Below, piece after piece: positions 5,979 through 63,649 of a stretch of 64,000 nucleotides of DNA. Made by a program: the position numbers and the translations under genes. Below the pieces are notes generated by a model. That model saw only the letters and a program-made list of their open reading frames with translations. It made no database searches and had not been told where the DNA came from. Origin of the DNA: Polytrichum commune (taxonomy: Eukaryota; Streptophyta; Polytrichopsida; Polytrichales; Polytrichaceae); NCBI GenBank assembly GCA_950295325.1, contig OX485807.1, positions 13,481,001-13,545,000 on the forward strand. The letters run 5' to 3'. Positions within the stretch are counted from its first letter, which is position 1. Every line of letters begins with the position of its first letter.

Positions 5979-6011
<33 letters not shown>

Positions 6012-6014
<3 letters not shown>

Positions 6015-6506
6015 ACTTCACATACGAGCCAAGAGTTGTGACCATGAAATTTTGAGAGCCCAAAAAAAAGTGTCCACAGGCCGTCCCAAGACACCTTCAA
6101 AGCCACGTAGTGTGGTCACAAACCCTCAAGTGTAGGGTGAAGTCGTATGTGACCATGCCCTCAACCAAATGCTATTTTAATGAATGCGGGTCCTCACACA
6201 TGATAAAATAGGATAAATCAACGGCTATGAACGTTCGGAATGCCATGGTCTCCCAACGGTTTTGTGTTAGACCTACCTCCAAGAGGCGGTTTTTGAAAAC
6301 AGTCCAAAGTGACCATGAAACACGATCCATTCGATGCCACGCAGGAATCTATGTCGACTTTACATCCATCTTGCATTCACATACTCACTCTGTCGGTCCC
6401 TCAAGCGTAGTGTGGAGCGAACTTGGACCAGCCCCACCTTTTCCACCAACGAGAGTGCTCGAAGTGTAACGGTCACGGGCTCGCAGTCTCGTGGGTGAAG
6501 TGGCCC
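6012..6506. mobile_element. Harbinger-type MITE, family C, copy 1 (left end eroded)
   Basis: The interior and right end (GAAGTGGCCC then TTA at 6507-6509) match the other family C copies. On the left the first bases of the TIR are merged with a GA repeat (5978-6012), so the left TSD is lost. It contains the recurrent internal segment with CCTCCAAGAGG near 6278. Confidence 0.82.
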
Positions 6507-6509
6507 TTA

Positions 6510-8583
6510 CTCAAGGTAATTAGCACGGATTCCGCTCACGAAGAAGATTGGGGTAGGTGAATGACTCCTGTCGAGAATCTCACATGCTCCTTGGGGACCA
6601 AGACTAATAATAAAAAGTGGCCAAAGGCGGTTTCATTGGGACCACTTCACTTCACTTCACTTCACTTCACTTCATGGAGGCAAGGCAAGGGCCATCTTCC
6701 TCCTCAATGGTCCCCAATCGATTAATTGAAGCAACGGTTGATATATATATAGGAGAGGAGAGAGAGAAAAAACATGAGAGCTTAATTTTATTATTACGCG
6801 GTTTGAATGCAAGTTAGTAGCACAAGGCACACCCTCCTAGCTAGCTACCGCATGGCTTCATTGTGGCTCGCTCGCTTGATTGATTGACCCACGAAACCAA
6901 CAAACAATTGAGAAATTTTGACTCCGTTGCAAGTGATGAAGGAGGTTTGAAGCATGGGAAGATTCAAGGGAGGCGGGGACGTGAGTGCATTGAGTGAGTG
7001 TGATTACTAACTCTTACCGAAATGGTGTGAAAGGGCCGTTAGAAACACGGCACCAAGTGGCTATGATGGATTTTTTATTTTTTATTTTTTATTTTAAAAA
7101 ACAAGATGATAGAGGATTTCACGTGGTCATAGTGGGTGGTCTAATCCTTAGGAGTCTTTGGACACGGGACATAGTGTGAATGTGGACTTTAGACTTTAGA
7201 CTGGGCGTAGTAATGTCTTTGATGAGCATTGCGAAATCGGGATTCACTAATGCAGGTTGTGATAGAAACAATATAAGTTGTTGAAGTAGGAAGTGTTTTT
7301 GGACATGGTTACTTCCACTCTCCCTTGAAACAATCACCCATTTGGGTTGTCTCGTTGCAAGGGTCAAGTGATCGTCAAACGCTATTCGTTTTTTTGGACG
7401 TGTAGGGTCTCTTCTCGTTTTCTTGTTCATTTTTTGACATGGTCGAATCTCGTGTTTTGATGATCTTGTGTAGAGTGAGGTGGGGGGATTGTCACTCATT
7501 TCTTCAACCAATGAGGGAGTCTGATACGCAGCGGTCATGGTCCGTGGTCGTTAATGTAAGCATGTCTTAATGTATGTGGATCTTATGTGGTCACTCTCCT
7601 TGACTCTTAAAGGCGCATCAATCTACTTCCTATGGTCTACGACGGTGATAGTGTGTACAAGCCAAAGTGATATAACACTCAAATTTTCACTTTGGTCTAT
7701 GAGACTCAAATTATATTTGACACATTTATTGTGCAAAGAGGAAGTGGAGCATTGAAGTGGAAATAAATTGCATGTGACGATGGTGATAAGACACCGGGAG
7801 GGATCATCTTTGACAAAACTTGCCTCGGGTTTACATCGAGTTCGCAGCTTTAATCTAAAATTAAAGCTTATTTCATTTATGCGCACCGTGTATTGGCGTC
7901 AACTCTCTCTTGTGATTTGAATCTATAATGCCATTTGACAATCATTGATGCAATTGGAGGGATGCAATTTACATGCATGTTGTTTTTGGATTGGGTCACT
8001 TTTACATTCATGACTTATTATAGCATGCAACAAGTCCCCTTAAATGCCTCCATACGATGTTTTGAGGCCCAAAATGGACCTTTTTGGTCATTATGGGTTA
8101 ATTGAACGCTTATGTTTGCACGGCATATGATAAGGCTTGTACTTAGGACCGTGCATCAAAAAGACATAATAGAAATGCATGTTACAATGAGATTGGATTT
8201 GTGTCAAAATATAGAAATTGTTCTAGACTCAATATTGAACACAAGTTGGGAGGGTATGTAAATATTAATGGATACGAGGTAGACTCCAATGGAACATACC
8301 CCTCTTAGCTCGGAATAGCCTGAGGAAATCTATTAAAAACAAGTGTACTTCTAAACCATTAACAAGTGTACATGCATATTATGAATATCTAAACCATATA
8401 GATAGTTGCACAAACTATAAGCACACAAAATTCTTATTCAACATCACGTTATTGCATGTTGAAGTACAATTGATCATATGAAACCATGTATGAAAGGTGT
8501 TTAAACTAATGAATAGTTTATGCGGGAAACCTCGTCCAATACTGATATTATAACATATGGAAACACGATACTTGCATACTAAG
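6510..8583. other. No gene or bounded element recognised
   Basis: The longest open frame (7119-7538, minus strand, 139 codons) has no motif and no recognisable neighbour. Apart from the CACTT array, no structure stands out. Confidence 0.45.
6644..6675. repeat. CACTT pentanucleotide array
   Basis: Six tandem units. Confidence 0.92.
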
Positions 8584-8963
8584 GGCCGGTTTACACTACG
8601 GTGGAGAAGGCCTCCGGTCAGTGTTCAAGATTGAAGTCTTCAATGCCCTTCAAACGCGATTTGGCCCTTCAAAATATACCTCTCTCAAAACAACCCTTCA
8701 AAATGCAACCCCAAACTCAAAATGAAAACTTCACTTGACGTCCTCAAATTTTTTACACCCGTCAACACTGTAGCACTACAGTGACGAGGAGGTCGCTACA
8801 GTGACAACCTCAACACCTAGCAAATGATTCATTCAACATCGATCTGACTTGGAATTCAACTTTTTAGGTCTTGCAAAAGATTGGAATCCAACCCTTTCTT
8901 TGGTAAACATTGAGTCAGTGTTGTAGTGTGATGTGATTCAATCAATGTGAAATCAGTGCTGAT

Positions 8964-10986
8964 TTGAAATCCCGTGCAGCTTTACAGATCCATTCGGTGA
9001 GATGGTTATCCCGTGGCTTGGTCATGGAGAGATTGGTATTTTGTATGCCTGCAATTTTAGAAATTTGGGAGGTTGAAGAACCCACATGGTACAAGGATCT
9101 AACTTCTCTTCAGTTCCAATTTTTCATTCACATGCTAGCTGATATATTATCAGAGTTGAATAAGGTCAATCGCAAGTTTCAGATTGATCTTGTAGATATC
9201 ACTAGGATAGCTTCTACGATTGATGTAACAATTAGCTTGTTTTGTAGACACTATCTGGGTGTAAGTTTTGGCCTGACAACCAAACACCTAGGAAAGTTTC
9301 TCCGCGAGGTGGTACCCAATGGGCAGATATTGTATGTTGATAGTTTTGGGTGTGAAAAAATGCATATCTTGCATTATGATTCCATGCCCGAGTGTGACGT
9401 AGGAGGCTCATTGGAGGCATGCATCATGTTGGGGAGGCAGTATGTGCAGAAGATCATCGATTCACTCAATGTGTCGCAACCCTTGCTAAGCCCCCTTGAC
9501 AATCTTGCCAATTTTCAATTTTAGCAAAGGTTACGAGCGCTAACCATTCGCATTCCGCCATGCTAATGGTTAGCTCCTCCTACCCCGGACCTTATAGTTC
9601 ATAGGAGGGAACCAACCCTCCTACTTTGCTTTTGGGACTCACCCCTTAATCGGTAACCATTCCTTAGATGTGGACTTCCATCCATGGAAGTCCAATCCTA
9701 TGTTGATCATCGCATTGCCGGAGCAACACTACAACAACCCGAACCATACTAGGCAACTATGGCCTCACAATGGGCCAATGCTCATGGACGCCTTGCCGTT
9801 TGGCCTCGGGTGGGTGAGGCCACACCACCTCACCCATATAAGCCTCTAGGACTTCACGCGGGGCCCCTACCCCACCGTCAACCAACCTCTTGTCTCTCTA
9901 CCAAGAGTTGGGGCCAAGTGGACATTTCCCTTTAGCTGCTGGGCCTAGAACCCCCCCAGCAGCTTCAGACCATCATAACTTCCTTGTATGATGTCCGATC
10001 AGAACAACCAACCACTTCATCTTCATCTACGCTTCACGTAGATGCCGATGGACTCCTCACTTGCCCCATTCGGGCAAGTCTTGGGGAAGTTATGCCTGTT
10101 TGAACCTTGGCAGTCCCGGGAATCACTCCCAGGCACTGCTGTACCAGGGCGCTGTCCCGGGACAGCGCCCCACTCAAATGGCCATAACTCCTAGCTCACA
10201 CCTCCGATTGAGGTGTTCTTGAGCTTTCTAGAATCACCACGCCATGAGCTACGCATAACTCATGGCCTTACCCTTGTGCCTCCTAATCTTCGTGGGTGGG
10301 AGGCGTTCCCAACGCCCGGGGCCCTCACCCACACTAGGATCACTTGGGCCCTCTCACCAACGGCGCCACAAGTCCCGGGTGTCACTCCGGGGTCCCCCTT
10401 GTGCCCATGGTGTTCCGGGCACTCCTCATGGAGAGGTGCGCGACACAATGATCGATTTCCTGACTTGTCCATTTTCAATGCGGCTCGGCTTTTTAGCCCG
10501 AAGCACTATCCCGTAGATGAATTGGACAGAGGGACATTAACGGAACAATGGTTGAACCGGTTGGTGACACATTTCCGTTGGAGCGATGACCTTGTTAATC
10601 AATGCAATGCGGAATTGCTAGAATTCGTGGAGATGTTATGTTCCGTTTGTGAACGCCGAAGTATGCAAGAAGCTTGGGTTTTTTGTGGCAATGACTGGGA
10701 GTTCATGATTAATTGGCCAACTATGATGTCGCTATGGCAAGCCATACTTGTGATCCCAACTAGCACTGCTGTTTGTGAGCGTGGTTTTTCAAAGCAAAAT
10801 TGGGTTAAGAGTGAAAGGAGAACTAGACTCAACCTTGACACACTAGATGCTTTAATGAGGGTTAGTCTAAATGGGTTAGGAGTTGAATTCATGGATTGGG
10901 ATAGTATTTTTGAATCTTGGAAAATTGGCACAAGAACCAACAAGCGTAGGGCATTATCACTAGAAGAGGTGGAGTTAGATGGTTGA
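8964..10986 (+). pseudogene. hAT transposase (DUF4371/ZNF862-like clade) remnant, split by insertion
   Basis: Two open segments of one transposase remain. The first (8964-9524, 186 codons, beginning mid-protein without an ATG) has HSVRWLSRGLVMERLV and SELNKVNRKFQIDLVDIT, typical of the ZNF862/KIAA1586-like hAT group. The second (in frame from about 10453 to 10986) starts at RFPDLSIFNAARLF and contains the C-terminal dimerisation motif LWQAILVIPTSTAVCERGFS followed by NWVKSERRTRL. The two halves follow each other in family order but are separated by about 0.95 kb of unrelated sequence. The N-terminal part (BED finger and first catalytic region) is absent, so no active enzyme can be made. Confidence 0.88.
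9514..10470. mobile_element. GC-rich chain-of-hairpins island inserted in the hAT transposase
   Basis: This segment is GC-rich and unlike its surroundings. It contains successive short perfect inverted repeats: GCTAACCATT (9539/9565), AGGAGGG (9603/9616), GGACTTCCA (9672/9685), TGGGTGAGG (9811/9828), CTCTTG (9887/9903), AGCTGCTGGG (9934/9955), CATCATA (9971/9987), CATCTACG (10024/10037), ACTTGCCC (10059/10072), a 24-bp perfect palindrome (10147-10170), CACCTC with outer GCTCA (10194-10224), GCCATGAG (10241/10259), GCCTCC (10278/10299), GGCGTT (10302/10311) and GTGCCC (10401/10417). There are no clear TIRs, TG/CA ends or poly(A). A 9-bp direct repeat ATTTTCAAT lies at 9511-9519 and 10471-10479, but the protein frame suggests a right edge nearer 10453, so the edges are uncertain. 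Confidence 0.65.
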
Positions 10987-12229
10987 TTCTTAATTCTTCA
11001 CATTATATTGGAAGCATGCACCATATAAATCATGCATAAGTTTAATATGAGTTTTTTTATATTTTATTTCTATATTACTGAATTAACGTCTTGAATTTGA
11101 ACTAGCCCTTCAACCGAAGGGCTCGAATTTTAGAGCCCTTCAAAATGAAACTCATATGAGGGCTTCAATCTTGAACACTGCCTCCGGTCGGTCAAGAATG
11201 CTTGGCCAAGACATGGTTATATGAGGCAAATGGTGGATGTGCCGGAGAAGAATTAAAGGCAATAAAATATTTTTATTGAGTTGGGCTTCTCCGGCCTCTT
11301 GAGGCTGGACAAGAAACTCCTCCTCCGGAGAAGCCCAACTCCAAGAAGTGCCGCCATGTAGGCGGCCATGTCATTTTATCATCCATGAGAAAAGTTCACC
11401 ACCATTGTTTTCTTCACCTAGTGTAAACACCCACCGGTCAAGAGTTGCATTTTCGACCAATCACAATGAAGAAACGCCCTTTTTTTCATAACTAATATCA
11501 CCCCAACTTGAAAAGCATGAGAGCTCAACAACCAAATGAGTGGAGGATTGATGTGAGTAATGGAATGTTAACAAACACATGTTGCCCAAGTGTTGAGCTT
11601 TCAAGTCCTTCAAAACACAGTGAGCCTCCTAAGTTAGCTCATGAAGCTCCAGGAGAAGGAAGGATTTTGACACCCACAAACATACCAAATAACAAATACA
11701 TTGGAGATGATATATAATCTACTCTTCAAATAGGATCAGTATCATAGATAACACAAAAGCAAACTTAAGTACTTTCCTTTCACTTAAGATGACCTTCTGA
11801 AATCAAACTCCTATACTTACAAATGATGTAAATGTGAAGGTAAAACCTGCATATATACCAACAAATATATTTTTTCATGTACAAATTTCATGTCTGCAGA
11901 TACCCTGCAAGCAGTTTAGATTCTTGCCTTTCTAAAATTAATTAATACAAACACCTCATGCCACTACTTTTTAGAATTGCAACATGATCAATGTCAGAAA
12001 TTCAATTATTACACAACACCTTCTTATCTATCAAAGACCGAATTTACAACCGCAACCTAACAAATTAAGATAAGTTGATAGTATAACACTAAAATATACC
12101 TACCTACTTACTCCTCCTTCTCACGTACGTGGACAACCCTAACGCATGTGGACGAAGTGTTTGGAATGACATTATAAATTTCATCCAAATTGATGTCACC
12201 CAAGGCAAGTACGAAAAAAAAAAACACTA

Positions 12230-12616
12230 GTTTTCAACGCCCCGGGCTAGATCACATCTTCATTCGGTTGCGCCCCGCCCTTCCCACGTCTCCTTCACTG
12301 CCCGGTCTTCCCACCCGGACCTGCGTGGGAACTCTTCCCCATTGGGAACCAATGTGACACTTAAGCCATTACGCGCCCGGTCACTTAAGCCATCAAGCTC
12401 CTTGACCATGTGAAGGAACTCCTTCAATCAACTTGGGAATAATGAAAGTGATGTCAACTCGAGTCTTTGTAAAATTAACCAGGTATTGTCACATTGGTTC
12501 CCAACGAGGAAAAGTTCCCATGCAAGTGCAGGCATGAAGACCAGGCAGTGAAGGAGGCATGGGAGGGGCGGGACCCAACTGAATGACAACGTGATCTAGC
12601 CCGGGCCGTTTCCAAC
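12230..12616. mobile_element. Foldback element with about 125-bp TIRs
   Basis: The left arm (12230 to about 12360) and the right arm (about 12485-12616) are imperfect complements. They share CCCGGGCTAGATCAC, CTCCTTCACTGCC and GGGAACCAATGTGACA. It is GC-rich compared with its flanks. Long TIRs with a short unique centre suggest a Mutator-type or foldback MITE, but no TSD could be fixed. Confidence 0.75.
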
Positions 12617-12706
12617 TCACATGAATTCCCCACCCACACTCTTAAAGAAGTCGGCTCTCCCGGTTCATTGGTAAGGTAAAAGCGGTTTCTTGTAAAGAAG
12701 GGAGGC

Positions 12707-16544: not shown

Positions 16545-18538
16545 ATGGAGGCAAATTTCCCAACTTTTGAGCATTGAGAAACCATTAAATCATGATTTTT
16601 ATTCATTAACGTTAGGTCTTGGTTATTTATATGAAAAAATATTCACAAGACTTGTATTTAGAGTTCGGTTTAGTAGTTTGTTCAACCCAACTCTCAACAT
16701 AAGTTCCAAGCCTCACTTCCGAAAAAGTGTTGCCATGTAGGCATCCATGTCATGTGTAGAAGTTAGGATTTGGAAGCCCGTGTGAAGTGGTAAGTCCCAA
16801 CTTCCATGCTCTTAACGGTTGAGATTGCACAAATTGACCTCAAGTGACTTGGGACTTAGGAGTTAGGATCCCAAGTGCACTGGCCCTAATTGAGATGGAG
16901 TTTTGGGAGCTTGGGGGGGGGGGTATGCTCATAAAACAATGGTAAGTTACTTGTTGTTGTAACATGCTTATATGTTAAGTTAACCCTTGATGTCCTATGT
17001 GGCCATAATTTGGTCATGAACAATTCGCTCTGACCCCTTTGACACCAATTCGGTTGGGTTCTAGACTGTTTCAACTACTTCTCTTGTTCATGTTCATGTG
17101 TGCTATGTTATGTCATGTGGATAATTTTGACTATGTTATGTCAACATAGTTAGCTATTTATGGATTAATTAAAATTATGGGAGTGTGCTCTCAACTAGTT
17201 TACAATGGAACTGGTCCACACACCAAAACTTGACATTTGTCAAGTTTGCGGTTTAAGGGTAGCATATCCTAACACATTTTTTTTGTTGATCCATATATGC
17301 AAATGATTCCCAATTGATACAAAAATTTACATGATACTCATCATATCCTAGACATATACCGTTTGAATTTTTAGTTGGACATGTGTTGGTGGGTACAAAT
17401 CCATGTGGAAGGTGCATAGTTGTCTCACCGCTGTCTCAAATTACAAAGCTTTCCAAAAAAAAAAATCACAAAATGATGGTTTCAAGATTTGTGACGTGAC
17501 TTGAGTAGGTATATTGCCCCTCTTTTAAACAAGGGTAATATTTTGTCATTTGGAGATGATTTGAGTGGAAGTTCAATTAAAAAAAAACACCAATTTCATC
17601 TCTAAATTGCTATTCCTCAAGGCCACTATGTCCAATCTTATTATAATCTCCTACGTAACATAACTCCAACGCCAAAATGACTGGAATGTGAGTCGTCACC
17701 TCTAACAAGCAAACATCTAAGTTATACAGTTGGATTTGTCAACAAAGCTTCGGATTTTCAGCTACGGTCTTTGAAATCAAGGTCACATATTACGGATAGA
17801 TTTGAGAGAAGTTAGGGGCTACAACAAGCATCACGGTTGGGGAAAAAGGTTGCAAGAGAGATTAGATGCAACATTTGACAATTACAAGGAGGACAACAAC
17901 TTAGTTGTCACTTGGAAGGTTAGGCCACAGATGGGCATTATTCCTTGATCTCCACTCGGGTTGTGTCAGTCCGCCCGTGTTGGGTTGTATTTTCAGTTTA
18001 CTCTCTTGCAATTAAATTTTCAATTCGTGCCCAAAAAAGAAGAAACGGAAAGAAAAAAAAGAAGACAATTGAAAGGAGGACGTGCACTAAATAGTGTGAA
18101 AGAAAGCAAGAAAGGCAAAGGAGGTGGTGGGGGGAAAGGTGAGCCTGGGTGTGGCTGCTATGGTGGCTAGCTTCAGATAGGAGGAGGCTCTAAAACTGGG
18201 TCTTCTGAGCATGAGAATGGCAGGAGATCCAATTAGTGTGGCAGAAAACACTCAACCCAGGCTTCACTTATTAAGAAGGTTAAGTTAACGTATCTGGCAG
18301 GGTGTGATAGCCACCCCTCTTGTCATGGATCATGGCCTAAAGTTATGATGAATCCGGCTCTCTTGTGTCCTCAAAAGTAGACGTGCCAAATTCAGTTACA
18401 AATTCTTAATCGGACGGACACCCATGCATGCCATGTTTGAGTGGTATGTGGTTATGTGTGACTTTCCAAAACCGGATACCACAATAATTAACAAGCGCTT
18501 CAAAAGAGATTGAAATATGATGACCATCTCATGCTAAG
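16545..18538. other. No gene recognised
   Basis: AT-rich spacer with a G11 run (16913-16923). No inverted-repeat element could be bounded. Confidence 0.4.
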
Positions 18539-18541
18539 TTA

Positions 18542-19053
18542 GGGCCACTTCACACACGAGACCGAGAGCCCGTGACCTTTACACGCCAAGCATTACACTC
18601 TCGTCGGTGGAAAAGGTGGGGCCGGTCCAAGTTCGCTTCACACCATGCTTGAAGGACGAACGGCGGAGTGAGTGTGTGAATGCAAGATGGATGTAAAGTC
18701 GACATGGATCCCTAGATGGCATCGAATTGATTGTGTTTCGTGGTCACTTGGATTGTTTTCAAAAACCAGCTTGTGGAGGTAGGCCTAACACAAAAAACCG
18801 GGAGGCCATGGCACTGCGAACGCTCACCATTGTTGGTTTACTATGTTTTATCATGTGTGAGGACCCACGTGAATAGAAATTCGTTGGAAAAGCATTTGGT
18901 TGAGGGCCCGGTCACATATGGCTTCACACTACACTTGAGGATCCATGACCACACTATGATTGCTGGAGGGGTCTTGGGACAACCTTTGGACACTTTCTTT
19001 TGGGCTCTCACAATTTCATGGTCACGGCTCTTGGCTTGTGTGTGAAATGGCCC
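18542..19053. mobile_element. Harbinger-type MITE, family C, copy 2
   Basis: The left TIR GGGCCACTTCACACACGAG is preceded by TTA. The right end (complement GGGCCATTTCACACAC) is followed by TAA, so the TSD is imperfect. It is about 512 bp long and includes the chance ORF 18731-19045, which resembles no protein. Confidence 0.87.
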
Positions 19054-19213
19054 TAACTGCGTGTTTCATATCCTAGAAGAAGTGGAGTAGTGGTGAAACA
19101 AAACTACCATTAAAGACCCAACTTCCTTACCCGAACAAATCTGATAGACTCATCACGCGGAACTTGAAAGAAATCTTCCAATTTGACTCGGGAAGAGAGG
19201 ATGGTCCCCACAT

Positions 19214-19438
19214 CACTACACTAAATATTGTATTTAGTGTCATTTAATTTTTTGAATTACACAGTTTCATATATTTTTACTAGTAATGTCATTTTTACCA
19301 AGTAAACATGTTAATGGTCTATAATGTCCAAACAACCAATTTTACCTTTGTTAGACCAAAAAAATATGAGAAATACATCAAATAGTTATAGCATTGCGTA
19401 ATTCCAAATAGTAAGTGACACTAAATACAATTAATGTA
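19214..19438. mobile_element. MITE family A, copy 1
   Basis: Starts CACTACACTAAATATTG. The interior TTGAATTACACAG...ATAATGTCC and the right end ATAGTAAGTGACACTAAATA match the other A copies, about 225 bp. The right TIR is partly decayed. Confidence 0.72.
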
Positions 19439-19998
19439 GATTTCGGTGTTCAACACTTGTTGGGAGAGGAGGAACAAGGGTGCAAAAACATGCCCTCTAT
19501 ATGTTGTGGATGATTTAGCCCGATTTTAGATTCAGTTTACTAATTCAAAGACAAAGCTATTGTACATGGTTTAGGGTGAATTTCCACAACACATTCCAAG
19601 GGGGAAAGGAAATTGGGGGAGGGGAAAACACTAATTTTTGTCATAGAGTTTAATAGTTGCTATTTAAAGCCGAATCGTACCCTTAAATTGGGGTCAAAGA
19701 CTTTTAATCATTTGAGGGAGCCTATTTTGGGATGAATTAACAACTAACTTCATACATGATATGTTTTTAATATTACCTATGTGCTAGGTGTTAGGAAATC
19801 AAACTATAATTAGATGCCTTGCCCTTTGAGTTGGCCTCATAGATCTTATGAAAAGTGAACATGCAATCAATTGTATTATAGCATATATGTTTTTTTTTTA
19901 AAGTTCATTTGACCCCGAAGTTTACATCAAAGTTTATTAATATATTCATGAATTAGTCTATGGGGACTCAAAACGGTCGACTACTACCACCACCACCA

Positions 19999-20556
19999 CA
20001 CCACTTATGATATTTAGTGTCATGTACACTATTTGCAAAGGGCCTGAACTAAATGCACGGAGGTCTAAAGTGTCACGTTTGCTAATTATCAATATGATAC
20101 TATTTGTGAACATAAGTGAACATAAGTGAACATAAGTAAACATAAGTAACTTTTTAAGTGAAGAAAATATTTGCATTATGACATTTAGCATAGGACATTG
20201 GATACTTTAGATGATAGTTTTGTGTTTTTGTATGCAAAGGGAACATATTACGGAACATACTAATGGCAAGTGTCATGTGTTTTTTTTATAATTAAATAGG
20301 CAAGAGCACACTAATTTCAAGTGTTATTTGTGTACACATTTAGTCAATTATTTATCAATTGTGTAATATATGCATACACCTCATAGCACTATTGAAATCA
20401 CACTCATGTGAAGATATTAGATAGCGCACTTGAATGCCAAGTGTCACGAGGTGACAATATCAAGAAGTTGTTGATCATTATTGTAATCTAGCATGTGCCT
20501 CAAAACATGGTAAGTGACACTATTACCCACCGGACATTAGATACCATAAATGGTGT
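19999..20556. mobile_element. MITE family H, copy 1
   Basis: About 550 bp. Left ACACCACTTATGATATTTAG and right complement AACACCATTTATGGTATCTA form TIRs. Contains the 10-bp tandem array at 20106-20147. Colinear with 42667-43150. Confidence 0.75.
20106..20147. repeat. 10-bp tandem repeat (GTGAACATAA), 4 copies
   Basis: Four adjacent copies with one changed base, inside family H copy 1. Copy 2 of family H has only one unit, so the array expanded after divergence. Confidence 0.9.
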
Positions 20557-27057: not shown

Positions 27058-27540
27058 TTAGGTGACACACTAATGGCCGTTATTGCAAACACACGACACT
27101 TGACATCAACAACTGGATAACATCTCCTTCTCGCATACAAAAATCACCAAATCGTCAATTCAAGTACTCCAGTGTGCTACGCTAAATGTCATATTCTTCT
27201 GAATAACCATACAAACACTTCAAAGAATTACTTTCATCGACAAATGATGTCCAAAAATATTTATCCAGCTACTACCAACCGTTACATCCTAGTAACATCA
27301 ATGACATTGCTTCACCCAAATTTACCAGGTTGAATCTACCGGTGTTATGCCCTGGTCGGAGAATAAACAAACTATAACTCCGAATAGAATTTGGTTCATT
27401 CCCGCCCCACCAACGCACAAACTCACTTGGATGGATGATGTTGTTGCCCTCCACTTCCCCCACAATCCCCCACATCAATGCCGCTCCCGTCTTGTAGTCT
27501 CTTGTAATTTCAAAGACCGTGAGATAAATCGTTATACTAA

Positions 27541-28018
27541 GGGCCACTTCACACACGAGATTGAGAGCCCATGACCATTACACTTCAAGCACTCTGATCG
27601 GTGGAAAAGGCGGAGCCGGTCCAAGTTCGCTTCACACTACGCTTGAGGGGCCAACAGAGTATGTGAATGCAAGATGGATGTAACGTCTACATGAATCCCT
27701 ACATGGCATCAAATGGATCATGTTTCATGATCACTCGGACTATATTCCAAAACCACCTCTTGGAGGTAGGCCCAACACAAAACCGGGAGACCATGGCACT
27801 CCGAACGCTCACAACCATTGGTTTACTCTATTTTCTCACATGTGAAGACCTGCATGAATAGAAATTCATTGAAATAGCATTTGGTTGAGGGCCCCGTCAC
27901 ACACTTAAGGGTCCGTGACCACACTACATGAGGTGCGTTGGGACGGCCTTTGGACACTTTTCTTTTGGGCTCTCACAATCTCATGGTCACGGCTCTTGGC
28001 TCGTGTGTGAAGTGGCCC
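27541..28018. mobile_element. Harbinger-type MITE, family C, copy 4
   Basis: GGGCCACTTCACACACGAG at the left and its complement at the right are flanked by TAA on both sides (27538-27540 and 28019-28021). It is 478 bp long, the cleanest family member here, and lies about 0.5 kb after copy 3. Confidence 0.92.
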
Positions 28019-28021
28019 TAA

Positions 28022-34305: not shown

Positions 34306-34835
34306 TGTCGTGAATGGAATGACATCTAGGTTAATTTAAAGTTAGCTTATTACACAAGATGGTGATTTATTTGTGGCCTTGTGCGCCGGTTCCACATATA
34401 TATGATGTCATGGGCCTCACACCATACAAATCACATATGACATGTCATGCTCGTTCTCATCATTCATCACTACCTTACATACCACATGTGCCCATATCCT
34501 CGTGGGCGATGAGGTGGATGGTGATCACCACCAATGACTCCGAATTTGACCCAATTTGCTCGTTCCCTCCTTACCAATTCGCATGATCGCCTCCACTCGG
34601 TGAAGCATGCATGCTACACAACCACTCAGTTGCTTGTGTGAGTTGAGTGGTAAGTAAAACCATGCGGCATCGCTAGGTGAGTTGGTTTAAGAAGGACCTC
34701 CTCCTCCTCCTATCGGTGTTTGCATGCAATGACGGTCATGGATGATGGGTACACAGTCGTAAGGTCACGGGTGTAGACTAATACTAAACTTATTAGTGTT
34801 GGAGATGGTGGTGGAGGCGGAAGAGTACTTACTTA

Positions 34836-35349
34836 GGGCCACTTCACACACAAGTCGAGAGCTGCGACCATGAAATTGTGAGAGCCCGAAAGAAAGTGTC
34901 CAAAGGCCGTCCCAACACACCTCCAAAATCATGTAGTGTGGTCACGGATCCTCAAGTGTAGTGTGAAGTCACATGTGACCGGGCCCTCAACCAAACGCTA
35001 TTTCAATGAATCTTTATTCACACGGACACGATAAAATAGAATAAACCAACGGTTGTGAGCGGGCGGAGTGCCATGGTCCCCCAACGGTTTTGTGTTAGGC
35101 CTACCTCCAAGAGGTGGTTTTTGAAAACGAGCCAAGTGACCATGAAACATGATCCAACACATGCCATGTAGGAATCCATCCATGTAAACTTTTACATCCA
35201 TCTTGCATCCACATACTCACTCCGTTGGTCCCTCAAGCGTAGTGTGAAGTGCACTTGGAGCGGCTCCGCCTTCTTTTCCACCAACGGGAGTGCTTGAAGT
35301 ACAATGGTCACGCATGGGCTCTCAGTCTCTCTCATACGTGAAGTTGCAG
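34836..35349. mobile_element. Harbinger-type MITE, family C, copy 5 (right end diverged)
   Basis: The left TIR GGGCCACTTCACACACAAG follows TTA (34833-34835), and the interior matches copies 1-4. The right TIR has decayed to GTGAAGTTGCAG, so the exact end is approximate. It is the nearest element upstream of the RING gene's promoter region. Confidence 0.83.
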
Positions 35350-36670: not shown

Positions 36671-39435
36671 ATGGCTGTGCAACCTCAGTACCCTGCATCC
36701 AACGTTGTGATTCCCGCCGACCACAGCAACAGGTGTCTTAATTTCTTCTCTCCCCTCAAAACAATGATGCTTTTAAACGCATACGAGAATGCATGAAACC
36801 TTCTCTCGTGTTTGTGGTGATCGACGGGGACAGATGTTGTGCTGCCTGGTGAATTCGCATCGAGTTGCAATCCGACTTGCAGGTTACATGAATTAAAAGC
36901 TCCTGGAAGAAAAAGTATCCTAATTCTTGGTATTGGAATGGAACAGGTCGGGCAGGCCATCGTCTGCTGTGGGCAATGACAACAGGAGCTTCTTGACACC
37001 GGGGCTCAACTTGAACTCGTTTCTCAGCAAGTTCCAGATTCACCAACCCGTCGTGGGAGGATCGAATCAGCTTCGCATCTTCAACCAATGTAAGTTACCA
37101 TCAGATTCTCCGCAAAACATCATCATCTTTGCCACAAGAGTACACCAAGGAGGCGAGCCAAGCAGGGTTGATTTCGATGATTATGGTGTTCAGCAATCAA
37201 AGACGTTCTTTCCAGCTTCCACTGTGCATAGAATTGGTGACCTAATCGTATCCGCCATCAATTCCTCCGTCGGAACGGAACGGCGATCATCAATTTCAGA
37301 ACACGTCCAATCATCAACCGTTGTAGTAGTAGCAGTAGTAGCAGAGCCAGGAAGAGCAGTGGTCCAACTTTCCCCCCTCTACGTTTCATCATTCTATCAC
37401 CTACCCTAGCATGGGTGAAATTAGGCTATGGTCATTTCTTGCGCCATTTTGCATCAAGCTCAGCATGAAATCCATCCTTCATTCTTCAAGGTTGCGACTT
37501 GTGACGTTGAAGAGATTCGGTACTCGCATAGTCCGAGAGCTAGAATCTTTCATCATACCTTCCTCCCTCTTGATTGAAGTTCGGGTAGGTAAGTGATGTT
37601 TTTTTCCTGTTTGGTTTTGCAGTGACCGGAGGAAGGCACGCATACCCTCCCCAAGTCAATGTAGCAGCAACACACGCAGAGAATGAGGGAAATGTCCCTG
37701 CAGCTGCGGGTGGATCCAGAAAGAGAGGCAGGGAAGTAGGAGACGACTTAGCCAGCCAGTGGCATCAACAACATCAGCAACACCAGCAGCACCTTCTCAA
37801 TGTCCCAAACTTCCATCAAACTCAAACCACTGGCCCTGGGTCGGTGGTTAATCCGCAGTCTACCACTGCTGCAGCAGCAGCACCAGGAGGAGGAGGAGTC
37901 TCCACAGGCTTGCGTCTCGCCTTCGAGAATGATCGTCTCCGCTCCACCTCGCCTGTTTCCACAAGCGGAAGACCCGAAGTGACTGCTAAGAATCTCGTCG
38001 CCAGCATGGCGGAGGATTTCAGTTCGCATCTCCAGAAAGAGCGTGACGAAATTGAACATCTCCTCAAAATACAGGTACACATATGAATGCATTTCGAACT
38101 GTGATACAAACCTGTGTCCATAAAAACAAGCAAGAAACCCTAGAGAGAGAGAGATTGCTTGCTTATGCTTTCTTGCTCTGGAGGAGCTGTTGTTCCGCTG
38201 TGTAGACGAGTGTCCTGAATGGATTTACACCTTGGACAATGTGGATTGGATTTATGTGTAGTCCATGTCACATGGGAATCTCGATGTCGACCTTCCAAGG
38301 TTTCTGCCCCGTTTCATCATTCCATTCTGAAATTGGGTTATGATGCTTGATAAGAATGGGGTCCGAATTCAATTGGGGCTTCGCTTGAACCAACATGTTT
38401 GCCTGTCATGAATAGAGAAACATGACTACTGCCAAGTAGATTAGAACATGTAAGATCCTTGAGAAAGTAGAGGAAAGGCAGCTATGTGCACACGTGCAAG
38501 TTTGTTTGAAAGGATTTCTCCTTTGCACTACACTAAAACAGATCTGATTTATCGTGGCATTCACATTGGCGTGCCATGTTTATTGGAGTGGTCTTCATGC
38601 CTTGTTATGTAGTGGCAAGATTCGCATGATATCTTCTCTAGTTGTCTCCAAGTGGATTGCAAGACAACGAATAATGTGGGTTTATGATCTGGCCCACACA
38701 GAACCAGATGTTTAGTGTAGTGCAATCACTGGATCCCTTGTTGTTTTCACCACTTTTGGTAAGATCTTTTTGGCATGGGAGTGAGGAGTGGGTGGATGAA
38801 TCAAAGATCTGTAGGGTGCTTGACCTATTTTATCCCAACCAACCCTAACCTAACCTTTTCTGTGTAATGCTGTTGTTTAGGGAGAGCAAGTGAGACAGCT
38901 TCTGGAAGAAAAGCGGCAGCGGCATTGCCGCCAGCTGATCGCTGCAGTGGAATTAGGGTTTTCACGCAAGCTCCGGGAGAAGGACTTGGAAGCGGAGAAG
39001 GTGAAGCACCAGAATCAGGAGCTGCTGGACAGACTACAACACCTGAGTGCGGAATCTATCAACTGGCAGAACAAGCTTCGACAATCGGAGCAGAATGTCA
39101 ACTTATTGAGGTCCAGTATACACCAGGCCTCGCAGCACCAACCCTATGCTCTCAACAGGGAGCAACAAAGCAAGGAAGGGTGTGGAGACAGCGAGGTTGA
39201 TGACTGTGCTTCTTCGTATGTAGACGACAGGATTGACGCTCATGCCCGAACTTTCAACGAGAACAAGGAGCTTCGGGAGCAGTGGACTTGTCGTGTGTGC
39301 CGGTGTAAGGATGTGTCCATGTTGCTGTTACCTTGCAGACATCTCTGCTTGTGCAAGGATTGCGAGGGACAACTCGATGCTTGCCCTCTCTGCCGAGCTC
39401 CCAAGAACGCCTCTGTCCAAGTTTACATGTCGTGA
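36671..39435 (+). CDS. BOI/BRG-like RING-type E3 ubiquitin ligase (4 exons, 403 aa)
   Basis: Proposed exons are 36671-36732, 36947-37089, 37623-38074 and 38881-39435; every intron begins GT and ends AG, with phases 2, 1 and 0. The joined frame is 1212 nt including the TGA stop. The ATG was chosen because the N-terminus MAVQPQYP matches the usual BOI-family start. Visible parts: basic patch SRKRGREV at residues 100-107, a His/Gln run near 116-125, an Ala/Gly run near 150, a Glu/Lys/Leu-rich coiled coil about 195-300 with the family's conserved Trp segment (W281), and a C-terminal RING with C356, C359, C371, H373, C377, C380, C387 and C390, all eight ligands present. Family knowledge: Arabidopsis BOI and BRG proteins are nuclear E3 ligases that restrain cell death, act in defence against Botrytis, and bind DELLA proteins in gibberellin signalling. 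Which paralogue this is, and whether it has that role, is inference. No disabling mutation is seen. Confidence 0.93.
38135..38154 (+). promoter_or_regulatory. Telo-box fused to GA repeat in intron 3
   Basis: AAACCCTA (telo-box) runs directly into a 13-nt GA repeat, 60 nt inside intron 3 of the RING gene. A second telomere-like CCCTAACC lies near 38845, close to the exon 4 acceptor. In Arabidopsis, telo-boxes and GA repeats are bound by TRB/AZF and BPC proteins that recruit Polycomb. That this copy works so is inference. Confidence 0.4.
38526..38722. mobile_element. 0.2-kb MITE in intron 3 (CACTACACTAAA termini)
   Basis: CACTACACTAAA at 38526 is matched by its inverted copy TTTAGTGTAGTG ending at 38722. 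The inverted match extends outward to TTGCAC/GTGCAA and inward to an ATCTG motif. The interior is unlike the other families. It lies wholly inside the intron, away from both splice sites, so it should not alter the protein. Confidence 0.7.
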
Positions 39436-60800: not shown

Positions 60801-61800
60801 ATAATATTGACAATAATTACAAAGATGACAACGTGATGCATGTGAGCGTGTGGTTTGAATTCTTTGGCAATTTATTTAAATATCAAAACATGTGATATAT
60901 GAGAGGGAAACATGACAATAAGGAGTGACATTTAAACTAAGAACATTTGTTCCCTATGCTTTCGGGATAAAAGAGGAGGAGAGACACTAAGGAGGTTGGT
61001 ATTACAAAGTTTAGAATGTATATGCTTGTCATTGAATAATGTCAAGATGAATAATCCCAATACTTTCAATGAATGATGTTGTTATGAATAATATTTTGCA
61101 GTGAATAGTGTCAAGATGAACTGTGCTTCCTAGGTCTTTCGGTGGCACTAATTTCAAAGCGTAAAGAAATTTAATATTACCTTCTCTAATTTCTTACACA
61201 CACTTTTAATTCTCTCTCTAATTGGGATATTTAGTGTAATTATACACTTTAGCATGTAGTACATCAAGTTCAACTCCCTCTCTCAGTACATTAGATTTTG
61301 GTAGCATGAATGGTGAGACCACAGTATCCAATGGAATCATGCCCCCATCTTGCAAATATGAAAGAGTAAACTAGAATTATGCTAAGTATGCCTAATTGTG
61401 ACCCTTACCTAGAAGTAACCCCTATATTCTTGCCTTTAAAAATATGGCTCATGAACATGAAAATGTAGGGTTCGTTTTGGATACACATGTGATCAACACT
61501 TTCAAAACTCATTGGTTATCTAGGTTATCTTAACAAACTTGCATGCTAAAATACGCCGAGCTCATTACAAGGATGTGTGGTCAATACACTGGCAAATCAA
61601 GCATTTTAGAAGGTAGAAAAATGGTGCATATCCCTAGTCCATTTATGTGGTCTAATGTGATATAATATAATGGTATGGAACTAGTGGTGGTGCTCACTCA
61701 TAACACAACATTGACTTGGGAAAGTATGGACATGATCACAATAATTACAATCATTAGGTCTACCCAACCAAAAAACCCCCATTTAACACGTGTAGAACGC
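57805..61800. other. Gene-free AT-rich stretch
   Basis: Contains G13 (59351-59363), G14 (60153-60166) and an AT array. The ORFs at 58080-58498 and 59669-59993 are short, overlapping and without motifs. Confidence 0.4.
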
Positions 61801-61802
61801 TA

Positions 61803-62100
61803 TGCCTAAAAAAACCGCACTCGAAATGGGTTGCGGTTCTTTTGACCAGCCTGGGCTGCACTTGATAAACGACTACATTTTTTTAAAGTTTTTTTTGGGC
61901 GACTGAAATTTCAAACTTTTGGGGCATATAATATACTGTTGGAAAGGTATTTTTAGGACCTTTCCAACAGTATGTTACATGCCCCCAAATTCCTAAAATT
62001 TCAATTGCTAATCCAAAAAAAAATCTGCAGTAGTTTAGCAACTGCAGATCAGGCTGGTCAAAGGAACTGCAGCCGATTGTTGCTACGGTTCTTTTTGGCA
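61803..62100. mobile_element. Near-complete foldback MITE with TA TSD
   Basis: The arms 61803 to about 61950 and about 61955-62100 are inverted copies almost to the centre. The outer end is TGCCTAAAAAAACCG (complement of right end TGCCAAAAAGAACCG), and the inner stem includes ATACTGTTGGAAAGGT facing its complement. It is bounded by TA on both sides (61801-61802, 62101-62102), as in Tc1/mariner-type MITEs. A transcript would form a stem of nearly 150 bp. Confidence 0.85.
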
Positions 62101-62104
62101 TAGT

Positions 62105-63649
62105 TTTCTACTAGTTTGATAAGCTTAAACTTACATCAAGGTATGTCACCACACAGTGTGCACCTTGCCTAGGCATGCATGGCTTTGCTAAGGAGGGTAG
62201 CCAAGGATTTAACTACAAACATTTAAGATAAACATGAATTATTGTGTCGGAGCTGCAAATTTGGAGGCCAAATAATGAAGAAAAAAAATGTGCTAATGGT
62301 TCCTGAGCGTTGAGGATGAGCAAACATAAGATCAAGCTACTATGACTTGACGGGTACTTGAGAGATGGCGAGGTATCGGGGTGCAAGCACAAAAACGTGG
62401 ACAAATCTTGATCCTTGCCTAGGTTCAAGTGAAAGCGATTTAAAATTAAACACTAACTTTGAATTTTGTAAAGAAAAAGGTCATAGATATTCAAAAAAAA
62501 ATATTGATTTACAAGGCCAAGCATTTTATGATGACAAAAAAAATTCCAAGAAAAGTCTACATATTCTAGAAGATGGTGCAAGTGGTGTGCAAGTATGTGA
62601 TATTAACAAGTAATTGTCAAAAAAATAAAATAAAATGATAAAATTGCATTAAATCAATGATATTCTACAAAAATTTGTGACTATGATCTCAAGTATATAA
62701 TGGATACAAGGGCTATGTAAAAAGTCCAACTTCAAAATATTTAAGGTCATAAAATTACGTTCAAAACCATATTCAATCATGTGCTTTTGAGCATCAATTT
62801 TAATGATAAGTTCTGAAGATCTCAACTTGATAATCTACATTTGAGTAATTAACACAACAATAAAGGTCATCATGAAAGAAATTATCCAATTCAAACAACC
62901 TTTTGCTACTACTTTTAGGCCTTTGACAAAAAAAAGACAAAAAAAGACATGGTTTTAGTGTACTAGAGCACTATTTTGGTCCACTTTACCATGCTTGCAC
63001 CTATCGGTTTTTGATTTTTCCTTTCAAAAGCTTTGACCAACACAACACAATATCAAATTCATGGGCGATGAAACCATACAAGTTTTTATTTATTCCACTT
63101 TCCTTCATATTGTTGTTGAGCGAGCAATATGAAGGTAGACATCCCTAATGATCTGGTTACATATCTTATTAGGACACCTATATAAATTGAGTGTAATGTG
63201 GCTTGGTGTGGCTCCAAGAACGAATGATACCAAAAAGGCATGATTCTTGTGTTGGAAAAAGATTGGAAAGAGATTGGATTGTGTATTCAAAATAGTCGTC
63301 AACATGATTAGGGGGAGCTCCATGTAACCATTCAATGAGCACGAGAATCTTCAATTGGATAATTGAGAAAGATATTCATATGAGCTCCAAAACTTTGAGG
63401 AAAGTGGCTACTAAGATTACGGCCTCGATTTGGATTTGATTTTGGAAACCATCGTGTACTAATCACGTGTTTGCATATCCCATGAGAAGTGGGCTCGGTT
63501 GGAAAAAGTAACCATTCAAGACCCATCTAACTTACCTCAATGCCTATGAAGATGATTACCCTACTAAAGGGATCACATGGTGTGGAAGTGTATCTTGATC
63601 CCGGTGACGAACAAAGTATTTGATTCTCAAAGTTGTAGTCCACATGTGG
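62105..63649. other. No gene recognised
   Basis: The frame 62365-62613 contains FCKEKGHRY, a faint echo of a gag zinc knuckle but missing its other cysteines. Nothing else is identifiable. Confidence 0.35.

Follow-up and report, generated by a model that had tools for sequence, protein, structure and literature searches.

A 64,000-nt stretch of Polytrichum commune DNA (contig OX485807.1, positions 13,481,001 to 13,545,000; hereafter the window) contains a hAT transposase gene that is interrupted by a segment rich in short hairpins, which raises the question of what was inserted there and why it folds as it does. An earlier note, made from the letters alone, had placed this segment at 9514–10470, denied it TG/CA ends and suggested that folded RNA or DNA cruciforms were under selection, or else that it was an uncharacterised non-autonomous element. 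That a foreign segment splits the transposase gene, with the two halves continuing in order, was borne out, and the breakpoints were found by tracing the hAT frame rather than the visible hairpins. Left of the insert the frame reads …GRQYVQKIIDSLN and right of it DRFPDLSIFNAARLFSPKHYP…; removing the 974-bp segment together with one copy of CAATG restores the frame (…KIIDSLN followed directly by DRFPDLSIFNAARLF…) and yields 356 codons without a stop from 8937 to 10986. The segment thus delimited has TGTCGCAACC as its first letters and GGTGCGCGACA as its last, so that TGTCGC at the start faces GCGACA at the end, a perfect 6-bp inversion with the TG...CA ends, and a perfect 5-bp TSD, that had been missed. 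The edges first proposed lay 42 bp short on the left and 25 bp too far on the right. The TG start and the left TSD had escaped notice through this misplaced left edge, which falls within the LTR; position 9514 sits near the stop of the run-on hAT frame (9524).

How specific are these ends? When every left edge from 9440 to 9530 was paired with every right edge from 10420 to 10480 (a 91 x 61 grid), 9472/10445 alone combined TG..CA ends with a 5-bp TSD free of mismatches. As a control, 3000 random grids of the same size were placed elsewhere in the window with the true site left out: 168 contained TG..CA ends with a 5-bp TSD and 7 contained these together with 6-bp inverted ends, restoration of a reading frame lying outside this test. 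When the grids were permitted to include the true site, the counts were 171 and 11 of 3000. The full signature (TSD, TG..CA and 6-bp inverted ends) occurs at 10 pairs of positions 200–3000 bp apart in the 64 kb, 9472/10445 among them. For 9472/10445 the end signature alone is suggestive; the evidence becomes strong once frame restoration, and the agreement of these ends with the borders of the foreign segment, are added. By eye we also weighed an intron, a Helitron and breakpoints closer to 9514; we preferred 9472/10445 because it stands alone in the grid with a perfect 5-bp duplication and TG…CA, and also leaves an intact frame. A MITE or foldback element was rejected, as long terminal inverted repeats are absent and the end inversion is only 6 bp perfect. 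Elsewhere in the window, a 946-bp segment at 19238–20183 has TG..CA ends whose outermost 6 bp are inverted, with TTTAG as a 5-bp direct repeat, and may represent a second solo LTR or a chance occurrence.

We conclude that the insert is very probably a solo LTR of an LTR retrotransposon, which landed in an older hAT transposase gene. Since hAT sequence flanks it on both sides, no internal retrotransposon region is left. The recombination that produces a solo LTR runs between two LTRs of the same element. We postulate that a retrotransposon integrated into the transposase gene, duplicating CAATG, and that LTR–LTR recombination would then have deleted the internal region and one LTR. Unequal homologous recombination is given as the origin of solo LTRs in excerpted text of PMC7251063, which also reports two peaks, near 300 and 1000 bp, in LTR length among the most abundant plant families; according to an excerpt of PMC6911290, 5-bp TSDs prevail in most plant LTR families (~80% of TSDs). 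The insert resembles plant solo LTRs of Ty1/copia and Ty3/gypsy elements in its TG...CA ends, short inverted termini, 5-bp TSD and length of ~1 kb, as well as in its missing internal region and its nesting within another transposon. That the window comes from a plant is also suggested by its repeats and genes.

The host is a hAT element, with the 8-bp TSD, the TIRs and the dimerisation domain all present (Table 1). Matches of its 3' part to the Hermes transposase are weak (best E 0.013), and a search of viral_contigs with the right hAT piece returned no relative. At ~350 codons, set against the usual length of a hAT transposase, the host is probably a deleted copy. Just outside it lies a 20-bp inverted repeat (8589–8608 and 11410–11428; 90% identity, E 0.002), and the hAT element may itself have inserted in an older element with these ends, which would make three nested layers. 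Beside its right end we also observed a 17-bp perfect inverted repeat with arms 30 nt apart (11278–11294 and 11325–11341) and, further on, an inverted repeat with 131-nt arms, 82% complementary and 127 nt apart (12229–12617), that has the look of a foldback or MITE-type element.

Table 1. Coordinates of the host hAT element, the insert and its hairpins (positions in the window)
Feature	Position	Strand	Details
Host hAT element	8619–11180	+	18-bp perfect TIR CAGTGTTCAAGATTGAAG; 8-bp TSD CCTCCGGT at 8611–8618 and 11181–11188
hAT transposase frame, 5' part	8937–9470	+	no Pfam match on its own, up to E 1
Left TSD copy	9467–9471		CAATG; 5 bp, perfect
Solo LTR (very probable)	9472–10445	+ (putative, from the TATA-like motif only)	974 bp; TGTCGC...GCGACA; GC 0.549
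Hairpin	9539–9574		15-bp arms, one mismatch, 6-nt loop
Perfect hairpin	9602–9623		stem 8, loop 6
Perfect hairpin	9671–9694		stem 11, loop 2
Perfect hairpin	9811–9836		stem 9, loop 8; adjoins TATA-like motif
TATA-like motif, candidate promoter	9837–9842	+	TATAAG; motif scan; directly after hairpin 9811–9836
Perfect hairpin	9887–9907		stem 6, loop 9
Perfect hairpin	9934–9964		stem 10, loop 11
Perfect hairpin	9971–9993		stem 7, loop 9
Hairpin	10018–10050		14-bp arms, two mismatches, loop 5; inner perfect stem 8 at 10024–10044
Perfect hairpin	10059–10079		stem 8, loop 5
Perfect palindrome	10147–10170		24 bp; GGGCGCTGTCCC/GGGACAGCGCCC
Perfect hairpin	10198–10216		stem 7, loop 5
Hairpin	10241–10266		one mismatch in the 11-bp arms; perfect stem 8
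Perfect hairpin	10302–10316		stem 6, loop 3
Perfect hairpin	10401–10422		stem 6, loop 10
Right TSD copy	10446–10450		CAATG; 5 bp, perfect
hAT transposase frame, 3' part with C-terminal dimerisation region	10450–10986	+	PF05699, E 5e-07

The chain of hairpins that first drew attention to the locus is real. Counting non-overlapping perfect hairpins with a stem of at least 6 and a loop of at most 12, we found 13 in the LTR against a mean of 2.39 (maximum 6) in 100 dinucleotide shuffles; for stems of at least 8 the count was 8 against 0.20, and for stems of at least 10 it was 3 against 0.01 (n = 100 for both). The 24-bp palindrome that had been singled out is present, the GC content exceeds that of most 1-kb bins of the window, and the stems are indeed unlike one another and make up no tandem repeat. 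The hairpins do not follow each other almost without gaps, as had been written: 17 of them, imperfect ones included, occupy 44% of the LTR. Three divisions into tandem units were tried and rejected as unconvincing against shuffled sequence: divergent units at 9955–10150 and 10165–10445, prompted by the common motifs CATAACT…TCCGAT and AGTCCCGGGNNTCACTCC, were equalled by 22 of 300 shuffles (54 of 300 with cheaper gaps), a split into 9472–9865 and 9866–10445 by 20 of 300, and one into 9472–9700 and 9701–9955 by 186 of 300. In the hAT flanks, perfect hairpins with a stem of at least 6 number 6 on the left (848 bp) and 2 on the right (730 bp), one on each side having a stem of at least 8; given the 6 on the left, the contrast of the LTR with that flank is about twofold at stems of at least 6 and clear only for longer stems.

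Predicted folding energies agree with the counts. The full LTR folds far better than its dinucleotide shuffles (z −12.0 for the + and −9.4 for the − strand, with 0 of 40 shuffles as good on each), and z barely changes when pairing is limited to a span of 80 nt (−12.1 and −9.6), so that the effect is local. Control segments at 8000–8973 and 10451–11180 gave z values no lower than −2.1 and no higher than −0.6, whichever strand or folding mode was used. The segment as first delimited, 9514–10470, folds as RNA at −382.4 kcal/mol against −296.85 (sd 8.42) for shuffles (z −10.16, 0 of 20 as good), and z is likewise −10.16 with DNA parameters. We also applied a criterion used for maize, 110-nt windows with a limit of −40 kcal/mol (taken from an excerpt of PMC10760457): 31% of 173 windows in the LTR pass on the + strand against 0.93% of 12,606 elsewhere, and 60% against 1.15% on the − strand.

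Measured against the whole window, 974-bp tiles scored for stems of at least 7 reach 9 and 8 on the insert, with 6 as the next best and a mean of 1.88, a yardstick made of window tiles and not of other LTRs. When the 64 kb were covered with 639 windows of 200 nt, z fell below −3.5 in 28, of which 5 lie in the insert; weaker ones within the insert start at 9601, 9701, 10201 and 10301 (z −2.6, −2.7, −2.4 and −1.0). Three other strongly folding regions that we inspected each consist of one or two large inverted repeats and not of a series of small ones. The strongest folding window of the 64 kb (61901–62100, z −10.1) belongs to nested inverted repeats with 93-nt and 43-nt arms at 61792–62111, which are MITE-like. 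Within the LTR, mismatches in stems are few, only 8 in all, with no G/T and one A/C; this small set carries no G-U excess and so no mark of RNA selection. With strong structure on both strands and no G·T mismatch, nothing favours RNA over DNA. CpG observed/expected over the whole LTR is 0.56, equal to the window, as a comparison of overall ratios.

Relatives of the insert were sought within the window and in sequence collections, and neither a second copy nor a full-length relative turned up in these. With 9514–10470 as query there are no other copies in the 64 kb, the only outside matches being two of 19 and 22 nt (E 0.62), and in a comparison of the window with itself at E 1e-5 the LTR was involved in none of the pairs longer than 60 nt. 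A degenerate motif had no match in either viral_contigs or genome_contigs, collections of prokaryotes and viruses; there, the 24-bp palindrome had 0 matches in viral_contigs and one stretch in genome_contigs, on an Amycolatopsis contig, which we take as chance. No Rfam family reached its gathering score anywhere in the window. In its TGTCGC…ACC beginning and its CATAACT…TCCGAT motif the insert may resemble other plant LTRs. The window further holds a ~500-bp repeat in four copies, 79–82% identical and in both orientations (6009–6511, 18537–19056, 27538–28021 and 34833–35329), and a RING-finger coding exon of a probable host gene (38881–39435; PF13920, E 3.1e-11).

Palindrome-rich, structured LTRs are known from plants, in Sireviruses and maize Copia elements (PMC2829016 and PMC10760457, both in excerpt; the latter cites Bousios 2016 on Sirevirus palindromes). 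In the excerpt of PMC2829016, Sirevirus LTRs carry, upstream of the TATA box, a single palindromic motif in repeated copies, most of which have a CGG...CCG core; the symmetry of these palindromes is likened by the authors to that of transcriptional activator sites. Our insert is like Sirevirus LTRs in its palindrome cluster, its strong predicted folding and a TATA-like motif located approximately in its inner portion. The difference is that the one repeated motif upstream of TATA is replaced in the insert by unrelated stems, which are found upstream as well as downstream of the TATA-like motif and over most of the LTR. The Sirevirus core, searched as CGG-N0-5-CCG, has no match in the LTR at 9472–10445; Tnd-1 is one Sirevirus that lacks a CGG...CCG core. 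A further Sirevirus feature is a CpG island bordered by the repeated motifs. Structured non-coding retrotransposon sequence is also found in non-autonomous LTR elements of the LARD and TRIM type, which the insert resembles in this respect; with hAT sequence directly on both sides, however, an internal domain, PBS and polypurine tract cannot be present in it, unlike in LARD and TRIM elements. Among the papers listed in our literature search we recognised none describing an LTR of mutually different hairpins, an absence that is not proof, and PMC11656987 makes no mention of palindromes, hairpins, inverted repeats or secondary structure.

If the insert is a solo LTR, the hairpins would be the LTR's own sequence, and hence part of the promoter, transcript leader and 3' end of the parent element. 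The candidate promoter motif is a bare consensus match, with one TATAA also on the − strand at 9596, and a motif scan of the LTR found AATAAA on neither strand. Relative to TATAAG, 3 of the 13 perfect hairpins are upstream and 10 downstream. We postulate, as our preferred reading, that the hairpins could have been cis-acting structure of the parent: near the promoter they would be dyad-symmetric regulatory sites, and the 10 beyond TATAAG would give the transcript a leader with strong folding. That such a cis-acting role, of either DNA or RNA kind, was selected has in our judgement slightly less than an even chance; we infer it, as we do the orientation and the promoter. A special case would make the hairpins dyad-symmetric protein-binding sites, that is, cis-regulatory DNA whose RNA folding would be a side effect that may also feed host small RNAs. 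The Sirevirus palindromes offer a precedent for this (PMC2829016 and PMC10760457, in excerpt), one perfect hairpin abuts the TATA-like motif and the symmetry is strong on both strands, but the missing CGG-N0-5-CCG, the differences between the stems and the position of 10 of 13 perfect hairpins downstream of the motif speak against it, and we consider it rather unlikely.

The insert could instead be a solo LTR whose hairpins have no selected function, template switching during reverse transcription or replication having perfected near-palindromes that retrotransposition then fixed. Such copying would leave stems that are mutually unrelated, mostly perfect Watson–Crick and free of a G-U excess, as seen among the 8 mismatches, and would suit the extreme values on both strands (z −12.0 and −9.4), although its action here is supposition. 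It needs many separate events within one LTR, and the three other strong-fold regions, compared here in place of other LTRs, contain one or two large inverted repeats each; we consider it rather unlikely too. Far less credible is a hairpin-built, non-autonomous element of a separate and uncharacterised kind that lacks both TIRs and TG/CA ends. The strong hairpin excess and the lack of a second copy in the window would fit such an element, but it is contradicted by the TG...CA ends, the inverted termini, the 5-bp TSD and the clean empty site, and we regard it as highly improbable. From the earlier note there survives a foreign insert with folding beyond chance, whereas the element without termini falls to the LTR ends, TSD and empty site. 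Two outcomes had been named there as speaking against it: folding no better than that of shuffled sequence, which is not what we find, and a segment belonging to a known LTR or other element with hairpins that are not conserved among its copies, of which the first half, a known kind of LTR element, very probably applies.

The solo LTR is thus ordinary as a kind of element, and its sequence is unusually dense in small, mutually different hairpins. A puzzling hairpin chain can now be read as the relic of a retrotransposon, its ends having been concealed when one edge was misplaced by 42 bp. Still noteworthy is the hairpin density of this LTR, whose perfect hairpins outnumber those of its own shuffles about fivefold (13 against 2.39). 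We think it improbable, though less so than an element of unknown kind, that a retrotransposon family exists in which distinct hairpins, preserved through compensatory changes, make up the whole LTR and act together as a single structured RNA domain; if this were true, such an LTR would serve packaging, dimerisation or translation, or would be a source of small RNAs, deliberate or accidental, and would not be a repeated palindromic enhancer. Should copies with covarying stems exist, they would provide a test of whether palindromes in LTRs benefit the element as RNA or as regulatory DNA, or instead arise as a by-product of copying and lay the element open to silencing by small RNAs.
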